This document shows, piece after piece, positions 4,261 to 55,134 of a stretch of DNA of 64,000 nt. The stretch is from Bacteroidota bacterium (GTDB lineage Bacteria > Bacteroidota > Bacteroidia > NS11-12g > UBA955), in contig CAUJCT010000056.1 of NCBI GenBank assembly GCA_963169345.1, forward strand, positions 62,001 through 126,000. The letters run 5' to 3'. The stretch's first letter is position 1; every line of letters starts with the position of its first letter. Both the position numbers and the translations under genes were made by a program. The notes beneath the pieces are model-generated. The model had not been told where the DNA came from, did not search any database, and saw nothing but the letters and a program-made list of their open reading frames with translations.

Positions 4261-4566
4261 ATGGTTCGCCTTTATGATTACTATGGTTTGGAAGTCTATT
4301 TCAAGAATAAGGCAGAACTCCCGATTACAGTTTTTGCCAAGAGAGGAGACTCAGAAAGTGCCATGTCCATTACTTTCAAAAATGGATTGGTAGATGACAT
4401 CCATTTTCTTCAGGTTGAAAAAGAGCTGGATGATGAAGACCGCGAATTGTTTCGACTTTTAATGGAGCGAAACATTAGTGAGATTATAAAAATGTGGCTG
4501 GATGTGTTTTTGTACAAACGTCCGGTTGAAATGGAAGTCATCAAATCCAATTTAAAAGAGCAATAA
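4261..4566 (+). CDS. Small protein of unknown function (weak DUF4160-like pattern)
   Basis: 101 residues if the ATG at 4261 is used (a TTG sits directly before it at 4258). Sequence runs YYGLEVYFKNKAELPITVFAKRG, then an acidic helix and a C-terminal WLDVFLYKRP. The order strand-strand-acidic helix-WxxxF recalls DUF4160, often found in toxin-antitoxin-like gene pairs, but the family's PHxH histidines are absent and no paired gene is next to it, so no function is claimed. A perfect -7 element TATATTTG (4249-4256) ends only 4 nt before the ATG, predicting a leaderless mRNA. Confidence 0.6.
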   Translation: MVRLYDYYGLEVYFKNKAELPITVFAKRGDSESAMSITFKNGLVDDIHFLQVEKELDDEDRELFRLLMERNISEIIKMWLDVFLYKRPVEMEVIKSNLKEQ

Positions 4567-4569
4567 AAA

Positions 4570-4592
4570 AAGGGATCCGTTTTGAATCCCTT
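4570..4592 (-). terminator. Intrinsic terminator, best on the minus strand
   Basis: A 7-bp stem AAGGGAT/ATCCCTT with a 9-nt loop. Read on the minus strand it is followed by seven T, so it would end transcripts from the acyl-CoA dehydrogenase gene after they cross the repeat element at 4605-4792. On the plus strand the T tract is weak. Confidence 0.65.
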
Positions 4593-4604
4593 ATTAAATA
4601 TTTA

Positions 4605-4792
4605 AGAGCTGGTCACAAAAATAGGATTTAGAGCCAAAAACGAGTATTTTTTATTCAGACCAGGCGTATTTCGAAGCACATACCAACGGTGGTCTGAGCA
4701 AGAAATACAACGACGTATGAATAAAAAAGACGAGTTGTAATAAATATCCAAAATACTGATTTGGCCTAAAGGTTATTTTAGAGACCAGCTTT
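4605..4792 (+). repeat. 188-bp palindromic repeat element, copy A
   Basis: An element with imperfect terminal inverted repeats (AGAGCTGGTC at the left, GACCAGCTTT at the right) and further nested inverted segments (TTTAGAGCCAAA/TTTGGCCTAAA; TTTTTTATTC/GAATAAAAAA; GTATTTC/GAAATAC), so the whole unit can fold into one long hairpin. A second copy lies in opposite orientation at 15110-15298, about nine in ten bases identical by eye; the central 60-70 bp are best conserved. Both copies begin 36-38 bp after the stop codon of a plus-strand gene. No transposase is nearby and no convincing target duplication is seen. A frame without ATG is open from 4609 to 4740. MITE-like; a 3'-UTR structural role is possible. 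Confidence 0.85.
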
Positions 4793-4800
4793 ATTTTCTT

Positions 4801-5940
4801 TTATTTTAAAATATCTCTTGAAATTACCACACGTTGAACTTCGCTGGTACCTTCGTAGATCTGAGTGATTTTTGCATCACGCATCAGACGTTCAACATGG
4901 TATTCTTTTACATAACCATATCCACCGTGTATTTGAACGGCTTCAACTGCAGTTTTCATTGCAACTTCAGAAGAGAACAATTTTGCCATGCTGCTGGCTC
5001 TGCCATAGTCCATTTTATTGTCTTTAAGCCAGGCAGCTTTCAAACATAGAAGGCGGGCTGCTTCAATTTCAGTAGCCATATCTGCCAATTTAAACTGTAT
5101 AGCCTGGTGATTCATAATTTCAGTACCGAAAGCTTTTCTTTCTTTAGAATATTGAAGCGCTAACTCATAAGCACCACTTGCTATACCCAAAGCTTGAGCA
5201 GCAATACCTATACGACCACCGGTTAAGGTTTTCATAGCGAACTTAAAACCAAAACCATCTTCACCAATTCGGTTGGCTTTTGGAACCTTAACATCTGTAA
5301 ACATCAGAGAGTGTGTGTCACTACCTCTGATACCCATTTTATCTTCTTTTTTACCGATGACAAAACCATCCCATCCTTTTTCAACTATAAAAGCATTGAT
5401 ACCTTTATGTCCGGCTTCAGCATTTGTTTGAGCAATTACCAGATAATACGTGGCAGTTTTACCATTGGTTATCCAGTTTTTAGTGCCGTTCAACAGGTAA
5501 TAATCACCCATATCGATTGCTGTGGTGCGTTGTGAAGTTGCATCGCTACCGGCTTCAGGTTCACTTAAACAGAAAGCACCGTGAACCTCCCCTTTAGCAA
5601 GAGGAACCAGATATTTTTGTTTTTGCTCTTCAGAGCCAAATGTTTCGAGACCCCAGCATACCAACGAGTTGTTTACAGAGACTACTACAGAAGCAGAAGC
5701 ATCCACTTTAGAGAGTTCCTCCATAGCCAGAACATAACTTACAGTATCCATTCCACTACCACCGTATTTCGGATCAACCATCATACCAAGGAAGCCGAGC
5801 TCTCCAAGTTTCTTAATTTGTTCTGCAGGAAACTCCTGGTTATTATCACGTTCTATAACACCAGGCAACAGCTCGGTTTGAGCAAAATCACGAGCAGCTT
5901 GTTGGACTGCCAATTGTTCTTCTGTTAATTCGAAATTCAT
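4801..5940 (-). CDS. Acyl-CoA dehydrogenase
   Basis: FAD-dependent enzyme catalysing alpha,beta-dehydrogenation of acyl-CoA in fatty-acid or branched-chain degradation; 379 residues. ATG at 5940 chosen: the longer frame to 6057 is a read-through of a repeat and crosses the promoter. The family N-terminus is NFELTEEQLAVQQAARDFA. Visible motifs are FCLSEPEAGSDA and WITNG (FAD/substrate binding), RIGIAAQALGIASGA, ERKAFGTEI, and YEGTSEVQRVVISRDIL, which carries the catalytic-base region (YEGTSE) typical of short/butyryl-chain enzymes. Chain-length specificity cannot be set. Own promoter at 5949-5980; terminator likely at 4570-4592. Confidence 0.93.
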   Translation of the reverse strand: MNFELTEEQLAVQQAARDFAQTELLPGVIERDNNQEFPAEQIKKLGELGFLGMMVDPKYGGSGMDTVSYVLAMEELSKVDASASVVVSVNNSLVCWGLETFGSEEQKQKYLVPLAKGEVHGAFCLSEPEAGSDATSQRTTAIDMGDYYLLNGTKNWITNGKTATYYLVIAQTNAEAGHKGINAFIVEKGWDGFVIGKKEDKMGIRGSDTHSLMFTDVKVPKANRIGEDGFGFKFAMKTLTGGRIGIAAQALGIASGAYELALQYSKERKAFGTEIMNHQAIQFKLADMATEIEAARLLCLKAAWLKDNKMDYGRASSMAKLFSSEVAMKTAVEAVQIHGGYGYVKEYHVERLMRDAKITQIYEGTSEVQRVVISRDILK

Positions 5941-5984: not shown

Positions 5985-6046
5985 GATTAGTTTTTTTAAC
6001 GCAATTAACCCTGCTAGGGTGTCGGGAATTAAAAAAATTCAAAATC
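5985..6046. repeat. ACCCTGSCAGGGT-type palindromic repeat, single copy
   Basis: Palindrome ACCCTGCTAGGGT (6008-6020) followed by GTCGGGAATTAAAAAAATTCAAAA. Its reverse complement matches the core of the tandem array at 54632-55066 (TCAATTTTTTTAATTTC, then CACCCTAGCAGGGTG). It lies in the divergent gap between the acyl-CoA dehydrogenase and lplA genes. Between this copy and the next (6047-6159) I see only AT-rich sequence. Confidence 0.75.
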
Positions 6047-6157
6047 TGCTCCCTCAACTGGATAAAAATTCTATCATTTCCATAAAAAATTAAGTGGTTT
6101 TCAATAAAGTGTGCTTGCTTTTTTCAATTAAAATATAGATAACATAGAGTGCAATGG

Positions 6158-6214
6158 AATTATTTTAACCTTAAACACCCTGCCAGGGTATCACAAATTA
6201 AAACAATTCAAAAC
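6158..6214. repeat. ACCCTGSCAGGGT-type palindromic repeat, single copy
   Basis: Palindrome ACCCTGCCAGGGT (6177-6189) flanked by GGAATTATTTTAA upstream and AATTAAAACAATTCAAAA downstream. Both flanks match the reverse complement of the array unit at 54632-55066, so homology extends beyond the palindrome. The remaining bases up to the lplA promoter (6215-6335) show no other feature. Confidence 0.75.
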
Positions 6215-6335
6215 CTTCTCAACCCACTCACAAAAAATACTGCCTCACTCAACAAATATTCTACCTGCTCCTGAATACATGAACAATTGATTTCCAACAT
6301 TTACTTATTTTACCGCCTTATTTCTACCAATTCCC

Positions 6336-10744: not shown

Positions 10745-10786
10745 ATGATTTGAATTTTTTTAATTTCCAACATCCGCCTGAGGCGA
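10745..10786. repeat. Divergent member of the palindromic repeat family
   Basis: TTGAATTTTTTTAATTTCC followed by a different palindrome CGCCTGAGGCG (10775-10785). The leader matches that of the ACCCTGSCAGGGT repeats (TCAATTTTTTTAATTTC) while both arms of the palindrome have changed together. The remaining 10587-10744 between the GNAT and GH3 genes is AT-rich with nothing recognisable. Confidence 0.55.
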
Positions 10787-13699: not shown

Positions 13700-15073
13700 A
13701 TGGAATTAAATTTCAACAAAATCGATGATCTTAATGCTACTCTTACTGTAGCACTTGCAAAGGCCGACTACGCCGAACTCGTAGAGAAACAACTTAAAAA
13801 ACACCAAAAAACCATCACCGTTAAAGGTTTCCGTCAAGGTTCTGCTCCAATGGGTATGATTAAAAGCATTTACGGTAAAAGCATTTTGGTGGATGAAATT
13901 AATCGTCTCGCTTCTCAGGGTCTTTACGATTATCTTAAAGAACAGAATATCGATATCATTGCTCAGCCTCTTCCTAGTGAATCGGTTAACTCTGATGTTG
14001 ACATCGAAAATAAAGAAGATTTTACTTTTGCTTTCGACCTTGGACTAGCTCCTAAATTTGAATTCAACATCTCTTCAGCTGATAAACTGGACAGATATGT
14101 TATCTCTGTTGATGATGCTGAAGTCAATAAAGAAGTTGAATCTTTAAGAGTAAGATATGGCACCATGGACAAAGCTGAAAAGGTTGAGGAAAAAGATGTT
14201 GTTTATGGTGTATTGACTGAATTAAATGATAATGACGAGGCTCTTGAAGGTGGTGTAAATGGTAAGAAAACATCTTTCACTCCTGAACTTATTACCGATG
14301 CTAAACTTAAAAAACAAATCATTGGTAAAAAAGTCGGTGATACACTGACTGCAGACATTTTTAAATTGTTCAACGACAATCAAAGTGTCATTGCCAGTTC
14401 ATTAGGTATTGCAAAAGAAGCTGTTAACGACCTTAACAAAAACTTCAAACTTGAAATTGAAGAAATCAACAGAAGAGTTTTAGCAGATGTCAATCAGGAA
14501 TTATTTGATCAAGTGCTTGGTGAAAACATTGTTAACGATGAAGATGCATTCAAAGCTAAAATCAAAGAAAATCTTGAAGCATATTACAGAAGTGAAAGCG
14601 ATCACCATGTCGACCACATGATAGGTCATTTGTTGGCTGAAAAGCACAATGTGCCACTTCCTGATGCATTTCTTAAACGCTGGTTGATCAGTACTAAAGA
14701 AGAAAACTACAATGCAGAAAATATCGATGAGCGCTATGAACAGGAATCTAAAGTCTTAAGAGAAATCCTGATTCGTGAAAAAGCTGCTCAGCAATTCAAT
14801 ATCCAAATTACTCAACAGGATATAGAAGATGCTTCTCTGGGTTATACCTTATCTATGTTCAGAAATTATGGTCTTCAGAATCCTGAATTTGAATTTGTAA
14901 AAAAATTCAGTGACGACTCATTGAAAAAGAGAGATTATGTTGAACAAATGAACGATATCGCTTTAAGAAGAAAAGTATATCACGAAATCAAAAACATTAT
15001 CTCCTACAACGATAAGCCTGTCAGCATCGAGGAATTCTATAAACTCATCGAAGAACACAATCATCAGCATTAA
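13700..15073 (+). CDS. tig: Trigger factor
   Basis: Ribosome-bound chaperone at the nascent-chain exit tunnel; 457 residues. The N-terminal ribosome-binding domain carries the signature GFRQGSAP (family GFRxGxxP) at about residues 48-55. The middle region (about 150-245) is in the place of the FKBP-type isomerase domain but looks divergent, as in many Bacteroidetes versions, so isomerase activity is doubtful. The C-terminal helical substrate cradle (about 250-450) is charged and ends in a His-rich HNHQH. Followed by clpP and clpX, a common pairing, although clpP has its own promoter and a repeat element lies between. Confidence 0.93.
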   Translation: MELNFNKIDDLNATLTVALAKADYAELVEKQLKKHQKTITVKGFRQGSAPMGMIKSIYGKSILVDEINRLASQGLYDYLKEQNIDIIAQPLPSESVNSDVDIENKEDFTFAFDLGLAPKFEFNISSADKLDRYVISVDDAEVNKEVESLRVRYGTMDKAEKVEEKDVVYGVLTELNDNDEALEGGVNGKKTSFTPELITDAKLKKQIIGKKVGDTLTADIFKLFNDNQSVIASSLGIAKEAVNDLNKNFKLEIEEINRRVLADVNQELFDQVLGENIVNDEDAFKAKIKENLEAYYRSESDHHVDHMIGHLLAEKHNVPLPDAFLKRWLISTKEENYNAENIDERYEQESKVLREILIREKAAQQFNIQITQQDIEDASLGYTLSMFRNYGLQNPEFEFVKKFSDDSLKKRDYVEQMNDIALRRKVYHEIKNIISYNDKPVSIEEFYKLIEEHNHQH

Positions 15074-15109
15074 TTGCTGCAACTTTTTTGAATCTTAATT
15101 GTCTATACT

Positions 15110-15298
15110 AAAGCTGGTCTCAAAAATAACCTTTAGGCCAAACAGGTATTGGATGATATGTATTTGAACGCGTCTTTTTTATTCATACGTCGTTGTATTT
15201 CTTGCTCAGACCACTTTTGGTATGTGCTTCGAAATACGTCTAATCTGAATAAAAAATACTCGGTTTTGGCTCTAAATCCAATTTTTGAGACCAACTCT
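15110..15298 (-). repeat. 189-bp palindromic repeat element, copy B
   Basis: Reverse-oriented copy of the element at 4605-4792. Ends AAAGCTGGTCTCAAAAAT and ATTTTTGAGACCAACTCT form the terminal inverted repeat. It begins 36 bp after the tig stop. On the minus strand a frame without ATG is open from 15294 to 15133 and aligns codon for codon with the frame in copy A. The bases from the element to the clpP promoter (15299-15393) show nothing else. Confidence 0.85.
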
Positions 15299-15393
15299 AA
15301 TCGTTGTGACATTTCGTCCAGCTTAAGTTTAGTACTATTTGTATGCTATACTAGGCTATTTCATGGAAATGTTGGCTAGATTAGGCGGATAAT

Positions 15394-15451: not shown

Positions 15452-16156
15452 ATGGACCAAGGAAACGAATTTAAAAAATACGCCAGCAAACATCTGGGAT
15501 TAAACAGCCTCACAGTTGACAGATATATCAACAGCGCAACCCCTAATGTTATTACCAATCTTACACCTAATATCATCGAGGAACGTCCTCTGAACATTGC
15601 TGCCATGGATATTTTCTCCAGGCTTATGATGGACAGAATCATATTCCTTGGTGTACCTATCAACGACGAAGTAGCCAATATTGTTATGGGTCAGTTGCTC
15701 TTTTTAGAAAGCACCAACCCTAACCGCGATATTCAAATTTATATCAATAGTCCTGGTGGCTCTGTTTATGCCGGACTGGGTATCTACGACACCATGCAGT
15801 TTATTACCAGCGATGTGAGTACTATCTGTACTGGTATGGCTGCCAGCATGGGCGCAGTTTTAATGTGTGCCGGTGCAGCAGGTAAAAGAACAGCTCTTAA
15901 ACACAGCCGTGTAATGATTCACCAGCCTCTTGGTGGTGTGCAAGGTCAGGCAACTGAAATTGAAATTACCTACAAGGAAATCTCTAAACTTAAAAAAGAA
16001 TTATACGATATCATCTCTTTCCACAGTGGTCAACCCTACGAGAAAGTTGAAAAAGACAGCGACCGTGATTACTGGATGACTGCCGAAGAAGCTAAAGCAT
16101 ACGGCATGGTGGATGAGGTGCTTTTCAGAAGCAAAGACAAGTCTAATGGCAAGTAA
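15452..16156 (+). CDS. clpP: ATP-dependent Clp protease proteolytic subunit
   Basis: Serine peptidase that forms the tetradecameric chamber fed by ClpX. 234 residues. The catalytic triad is visible: S132 in GMAASMGAVLM, H157 in RVMIHQPLGG and D206 in DRDYWMTAEEA. The INSPGGSVYAGLGIYDTM segment forms the oxyanion/substrate strand. An N-terminal extension of about 35 residues before the core is probably partly removed as a propeptide. The 3' end overlaps the clpX start by 11 nt, so the two subunits are made from one message. Confidence 0.97.
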   Translation: MDQGNEFKKYASKHLGLNSLTVDRYINSATPNVITNLTPNIIEERPLNIAAMDIFSRLMMDRIIFLGVPINDEVANIVMGQLLFLESTNPNRDIQIYINSPGGSVYAGLGIYDTMQFITSDVSTICTGMAASMGAVLMCAGAAGKRTALKHSRVMIHQPLGGVQGQATEIEITYKEISKLKKELYDIISFHSGQPYEKVEKDSDRDYWMTAEEAKAYGMVDEVLFRSKDKSNGK

Positions 16157-54523: not shown

Positions 54524-54631
54524 AGGGCAAAGATAAAGTAGTTTAGGTATTAATTTAAGGAGCAGTGATTGCGATGAAAATATGGTAATTAAAAATTAAA
54601 AAAACAAGTGCCTTAAATTGAAACCTAACAT

Positions 54632-55066
54632 ATTTTTTTCGAATGATGAAGGAAATTTGTTGAATGGGGAAAGTTGATTTTCAATTTTTTTAATTTCATA
54701 CACCCTAGCAGGGTGTTGTCCATTAAAATAATTCCAAACAATATTTTAATAACTTCTTCAACTCAATTTTCCAATAGCCTTTTACCGAAATGATGCTAAT
54801 TTTTTTCGAATGATGAAGGAAATTTGTTGAATAGGGAAAGATGATTTTCAATTTTTTTAATTTCATACACCCTGGCAGGGTGTTGTCCATTAAAATAATT
54901 CCAAATAATATTTAATACCTTCTTCAACTCAATTTTCCAATAGCCTTTTACCGAAATGATGCTTATTTTTTTCGAATGATGAAGGAAATTTGTTGAATAG
55001 GGAAAGATGATTTTCAATTTTTTTAATTTCATACACCCTAGCAGGGTGTTGTCCATTAAAATAATT
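54632..55066. repeat. Tandem array of the ACCCTGSCAGGGT repeat, about 2.6 units
   Basis: Units of 166-167 bp start at TTCGAATGATGAAGG (54641, 54808 and 54974, taking GAATGATGAA as anchor). Each carries TCAATTTTTTTAATTTCATACAC and the palindrome CACCCTRGCAGGGTG at 54701-54715, 54868-54882 and 55034-55048 (the second has GG for AG), followed by TTGTCCATTAAAATAATTC. The last unit stops after that segment. Single copies with the same core occur at 5985-6046 and 6158-6214. It fills the divergent gap between the helicase and the GT-C-like gene. Not a CRISPR: unit length and identity are wrong. Confidence 0.88.
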
Positions 55067-55134
55067 CATTCCCTCTCAAAAGCCCCTCAAAACAAAAACA
55101 TCCTTTTAATCCTCTTTTAGAATATCTTTGTCTC

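Follow-up and report, generated by a model that had tools for sequence, protein, structure and literature searches.

A palindromic TA-flanked MITE family in Bacteroidia with an IS5-family insertion sequence as candidate helper

The window – the whole 64,000-nucleotide stretch of DNA analysed here – holds two inverted palindromic elements that are, with high probability, copies of a non-autonomous MITE of about 190 bp with an IS5-type helper, the best explanation of the pair as a whole. The earlier note had offered a MITE as one of two readings, and that reading is strengthened by the many copies found, by a TA duplication at an empty site, and by ends common to IS5-family insertion sequences (ISs) of other Bacteroidia.

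We propose that an IS5-family transposase would recognise the terminal inverted repeats and insert the element at TA, which is duplicated, as one empty site shows. Both ends begin with TA followed by A or G; a stop codon struck in its TA would thus be rebuilt, so that insertions at gene ends would be tolerated. The copies in the window's genome are probably decaying, since no matching transposase is detectable there. Between lineages, compensatory change appears to preserve the inner hairpin, an indication that selection falls on the mobile source copies and not separately on every resident insertion.

Two window copies and a dispersed family

When the target TA is taken into the element's limits, copy 1 (190 bp; 4604..4793, minus strand) scores 221.9 bits with model R1, and copy 2 (191 bp, with TA on both sides; 15109..15299, plus strand) scores 220 bits. 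The inverted arrangement described earlier, at 4605-4792 (minus) and 15110-15298 (plus), is confirmed, with 89% identity over 189 bp. The window elements are imperfect palindromes, and the single long hairpin that had been suggested for them is well supported, with folding energies of -56.5, -53.5 and -56.8 kcal/mol, where shuffled sequence averages about -30 to -32 (z-scores of -6.0, -6.9 and -8.2). In copy 2 the left terminal inverted repeat, TAAAGCTGGTCTCAAAAATAA with the target TA included, occupies 15109..15129 (plus), and the right repeat, with reverse complement TAGAGTTGGTCTCAAAAATT, lies at 15280..15299 (minus). Between them are a variable bulge of about 25 nt on the 5′ side of the hairpin (15150..15172, plus) and a conserved inner core hairpin (15173..15261, plus). 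Rfam covariance models gave no match to the element at either the gathering or a lax threshold.

Both copies adjoin core genes, and the observation that no transposase is near them is correct. Copy 1 lies between a small plus-strand ORF (stop 4566) and a minus-strand acyl-CoA dehydrogenase gene, whose stop at 4801 is only 8 nt from the element; copy 2 lies between tig (13700-15073) and clpP (15452-16156). The two were noted to start at the same short distance after a plus-strand stop. The distances themselves are real (36 nt from tig, 38 nt from the 102-aa ORF), but the shared spacing is a coincidence and is rejected as a rule, because elsewhere the distance to a stop ranges from 2 to 99 nt, or the copy is within a gene.

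The pair belongs to a dispersed family with more than two copies, as a BLASTN count in the genome and model searches of relatives establish. In the 3.63-Mb genome that the window comes from (59 contigs), blastn detects eight copies 85-100% identical to copy 2, plus several partial ones; in all there are eight near-full copies and at least seven that are older or deleted. Pairwise identity among the eight close copies is 78-94%, as expected for an old, orphaned family. The element is thus short, non-coding, multi-copy and dispersed, and carries terminal inverted repeats, as MITEs do. Two old copies (L110 and L112, 222 and 211 bp) have in common an extra insert of about 30 nt near the hairpin tip. 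Solo ends of 16-17 nt (AAAGCTGGTCTCAAAA) with no element remaining, mostly near gene ends, occur at four loci of this genome (L021, L022, L027 and L028, on contigs C53, C27 and C19 of G000), and are probably deletion remnants.

A first covariance model, built from ten copies, added older own-genome copies, bringing those placed and analysed to 15, and identified relatives in five other genomes, three of the same genus (G003, G009, G013) and two of the same family (G024, G028). A copy in G080 was added by a pattern scan, from generic TCTCAAAA pairs in the order, where other pairs were mostly chance. The second model, drawn from six genomes of four genera, matches 20 of 295 sampled Bacteroidia genomes, the window's own included; eight candidates per genome were scored in this count, which makes the copy numbers minimum values and may have cost some weak matches. 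Most matches outside the window's family are about 165-169 bp long and lack the extra bulge of about 25 nt that the window's family carries on one arm. In G216, matches confined to the inner core come from elements truncated where a contig stops.

Scanning named genomes for the pattern gave one real match, in the Bacteroidia MAG contig JANWHK010000094.1, and an archaeal match that is chance. The G024 copy has no match in plasmid and phage collections, and the core pattern has none in viral contigs; the end pattern has many single matches in viral contigs, and the loose pairs inspected there are chance.

A second dispersed repeat is also present in the window (54578-55067, 5986-6260 and 10749-10775), with units of about 166 bp, three of them in tandem, and a hairpin ACACCCTGGCAGGGTGT. 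Elsewhere in the genome (G000:C48:22953-23159, locus L035) a Y1_Tnp gene has related units on either side, and this repeat together with the Y1_Tnp gene looks like a REP/RAYT system.

Element ends, target duplication and the candidate helper

The left end reads TA(A/G)AAGC..TCTCAAAA in most copies and the right end is its complement, and a TA usually bounds the element on either side. One copy, L097, interrupts a small secreted-protein ORF, and excising it with one TA restores the frame (MKAAF...GGCYYLKTKKKVKVYVDKMHCNC), which then reads MKAAFSLLVVAGLALASFTSVSYKPKPCGTYNGRNLYKGEKGGCYYLKTKKKVKVYVDKMHCNC followed by a stop. An ungapped 64-codon homologue of the interrupted protein, with 72% identity, is encoded in G015 of the same genus, and an uninterrupted GGCYYLK stretch of the same protein is present in G007, G012 and G014. 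Because removing L097 with one TA restores the gene as it stands in congeners, the target duplication at this locus is shown, by reconstruction from sequence, to be TA. The same reconstruction places copy L100 five codons before a stop.

Ends vary across the class, and a second end type, GAGGCTGTTTAAA, is found in other families. At seven loci in other Bacteroidia (L251, L252, L261, L263, L268, L275 and L277), TAGAAGCCATCTCAAAA-type ends enclose differing palindromic interiors, for example TTTCGACA.GCTCAACCTGAC and CGTCATTGCAAGG...GCAATGACG, a pattern that would fit the mobilisation of several hairpins by a single set of ends. Conversely, the same core hairpin lies within ends like TAGAGGCTGTTTAAA or TAGAAGCTGTCTAAA at seven loci from several families (L292, L294, L295, L298, L300, L306 and L314).

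The search for an IS with the same ends, suggested earlier, yielded an IS5-family match in other Bacteroidia, for the GAAGCCATCTCAAAA subfamilies. An exact match to the 17-mer TAGAAGCNATCTCAAAA is present in 17 of 395 Bacteroidia genomes, against one match for the reversed control pattern, and facing pairs of it are either 92-165 bp apart or 875, 898 or 899 bp apart. The transposase encoded by the units of about 0.9 kb combines DUF4096 and DDE_Tnp_1 domains and scores above cut-off for the NCBIfam IS5 family. Eleven IS matches, in which the open frame spans 283 codons, are present in G228; where junctions are readable on both sides, nine are TA/TA and one is TC/TC, and these junctions indicate that the two-base duplication also belongs to the IS. 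In the genus of G228 the MITE and the IS share their terminal 17-23 bp and nothing else significant. The common ends and target suggest that an IS5-family IS moves the MITE.

No IS with GGTCTC ends – those of the window's own subfamily – was found in the window's genome, and an IS5 orfB query had no match there or in the related genomes tested. The ends of the window's subfamily have a partial identity to the IS ends (TCTCAAAAATA, 11 bp) that is not significant alone; from this and the TA duplication we infer, less firmly, that the GGTCTC subfamily is also linked to the IS. The sole DDE_Tnp_1 gene in the window's genome encodes a 414-aa IS4-like transposase without matching ends. An IS630/Tc1 helper is rejected, there being no DDE_3 match in this genome. 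With no matching transposase detected in it, the copies in the window's genome look orphaned.

Gene ends, orientation and the conserved fold

The preference for gene ends proposed earlier holds in the window's genome but does not extend to its relatives. Here, by empty-site reconstruction, 13 of the 15 copies lie within 60 nt of a stop, against a null of 0.516 (p=0.005). The null is the share among TA sites located either between genes or within a gene's final 60 nt, and it depends on that definition of tolerated sites and on a simple ORF caller; among all TA sites the share within 60 nt of a stop is 0.10. In relatives, where insertions within genes and between divergent genes are also seen, the corresponding count is 5 of 13; the class sample gives 12 of 24. 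Of 51 copies, seven occupy a stop codon's TA, compared with a background of 5.3% of tolerated sites. Insertion tolerance, including regeneration of a stop codon that has been hit, explains the gene-end excess. Relative to the neighbouring gene, the ratio of sense to antisense copies is 9:3 in the own genome, 4:4 in the family and 4:15 across the class, and orientation thus shows no consistent preference.

The fold is conserved well beyond the window. In an alignment of 20 copies, 91.1% of cells are paired versus 73.3% in shuffles, and 30 of 43 pairs show double-sided changes; the alignment was made without structure, and deriving the structure from it gives that structure some advantage. The covariation score is 0.471, versus 0.154 for shuffled and 0.048-0.100 for slid alignments; kinship inflates such scores, but the slid controls retain it. 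Class-wide, double changes are found in 38 of 44 pairs. Among the eight close own-genome copies the pair is kept in 4 of 28 unique single stem changes, where 4.1 are expected, a comparison of limited power. Changes per site number 0.25 in stems versus 0.82 in unpaired positions, from which no conclusion is drawn because the unpaired set includes the hypervariable bulge. In our reading, source copies are the target of selection, or of correction of one arm by the other, whereas resident copies are not.

These data bear on three other explanations. The earlier note had alternatively proposed a mobile 3′-UTR module, a hairpin that spread by terminating transcription or protecting mRNA 3′ ends, with each insertion retained for that function. 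The long and stable hairpin, the proximity to stops of the own-genome copies and the sense orientation of 9 of the 12 that can be assigned would all suit such a module, which nevertheless seems improbable: orientation is inconsistent across the family and class, relatives are less often near stops and several are in divergent regions, the close copies keep no excess of pairs, and both window loci have separate terminator-like sites, identified by consensus scan only. One of these is that of tig, upstream of copy 2 (15065..15089, plus); the other, in the direction of the acyl-CoA dehydrogenase gene, now lies beyond the inserted copy 1 (4560..4592, minus). We give still less credence to a REP/REPIN-type element whose hairpin would be recognised as single-stranded DNA by a Y1 (RAYT) transposase. 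The element is palindromic and intergenic, compensation preserves its fold, and Y1_Tnp genes are present in the genome; these are not flanked by the element or otherwise associated with it, however, and a Y1/RAYT helper is therefore rejected. Moreover, the element's ends match a DDE IS, and the empty site shows a TA duplication, which Y1 enzymes do not, to our knowledge, produce.

The remaining alternative accepts a MITE and attributes the compensatory changes not to selection but to quasi-palindrome correction, whereby a template switch in replication overwrites one arm with the sequence of the other. Palindromes are known targets of template switching, and the changes between subfamilies are grouped into blocks that affect both arms. 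Internal loops and the asymmetric 5′ bulge, however, stay in place across genera, although correction would tend to remove them; this counts against it and leaves it unlikely, if less so than the other two. A point against the MITE with an IS5-type helper that we prefer is that transposase recognition alone does not account for the strong fold conservation, since MITEs of DDE elements normally need no conserved interior. We tentatively raise the possibility that the core hairpin is a functional module selected across Bacteroidia and carried under different ends (TCTCAAAA and TTTAAA types). If this were so, it might be, for example, a DNA or RNA structure that promotes transposition or shields the element, and the MITE family would be defined by its conserved fold and not by its ends.

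Comparison with known systems

In a review of small mobile repeats of bacteria, Correia/NEMIS, ERIC and RUP are listed as elements of about 100-200 bp that have long stem-loops, terminate in TA, carry terminal repeats and duplicate their target; among them an IS end match was known at that time for RUP alone (PMC2229807). The present family fits this ERIC/Correia/RUP type of TA MITE and is itself new. A literature search found no description of it, which is weak evidence because subscription papers fell mostly outside the search. The family adds a widespread Bacteroidia MITE for which there is a candidate helper IS and for which TA duplication has been demonstrated. Its fold, conserved over the class while the ends vary, offers a clean test case for why ERIC and other palindromic MITEs retain their interior.

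Among individual systems, the ERIC (IRU, RU-1) elements of enterobacteria are likewise intergenic, dispersed stem-loops having TA termini with target duplication (PMC2229807), but they are about 127 bp long and belong to a different phylum, and by description the present element is set apart from them by its 165-191 bp length and its IS end match. RUP of Streptococcus pneumoniae is also a palindromic TA MITE with ends matching an IS, which is IS630-Spn1 of the same genome (PMC2229807) as opposed to an IS5-family IS of other genomes here. Correia/NEMIS elements of Neisseria resemble the present one as TA-flanked MITEs with size classes and a long stem-loop (PMC2229807), and differ in their ends and sequence. 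In Bacteroidota, a Cardinium MITE similarly has the ends of a known IS, ISCca4 (PMC9769881); it derives from the IS982 family, whereas the present element has IS5-type ends. Closest in its termini is the IS5-family IS with TAGAAGCCATCTCAAAA ends in G228, G287 and G148, which has the terminal 17-23 bp and the TA duplication in common with the MITE, and which differs in being about 0.9 kb long, in encoding a transposase, and in having an interior unrelated to that of the MITE.
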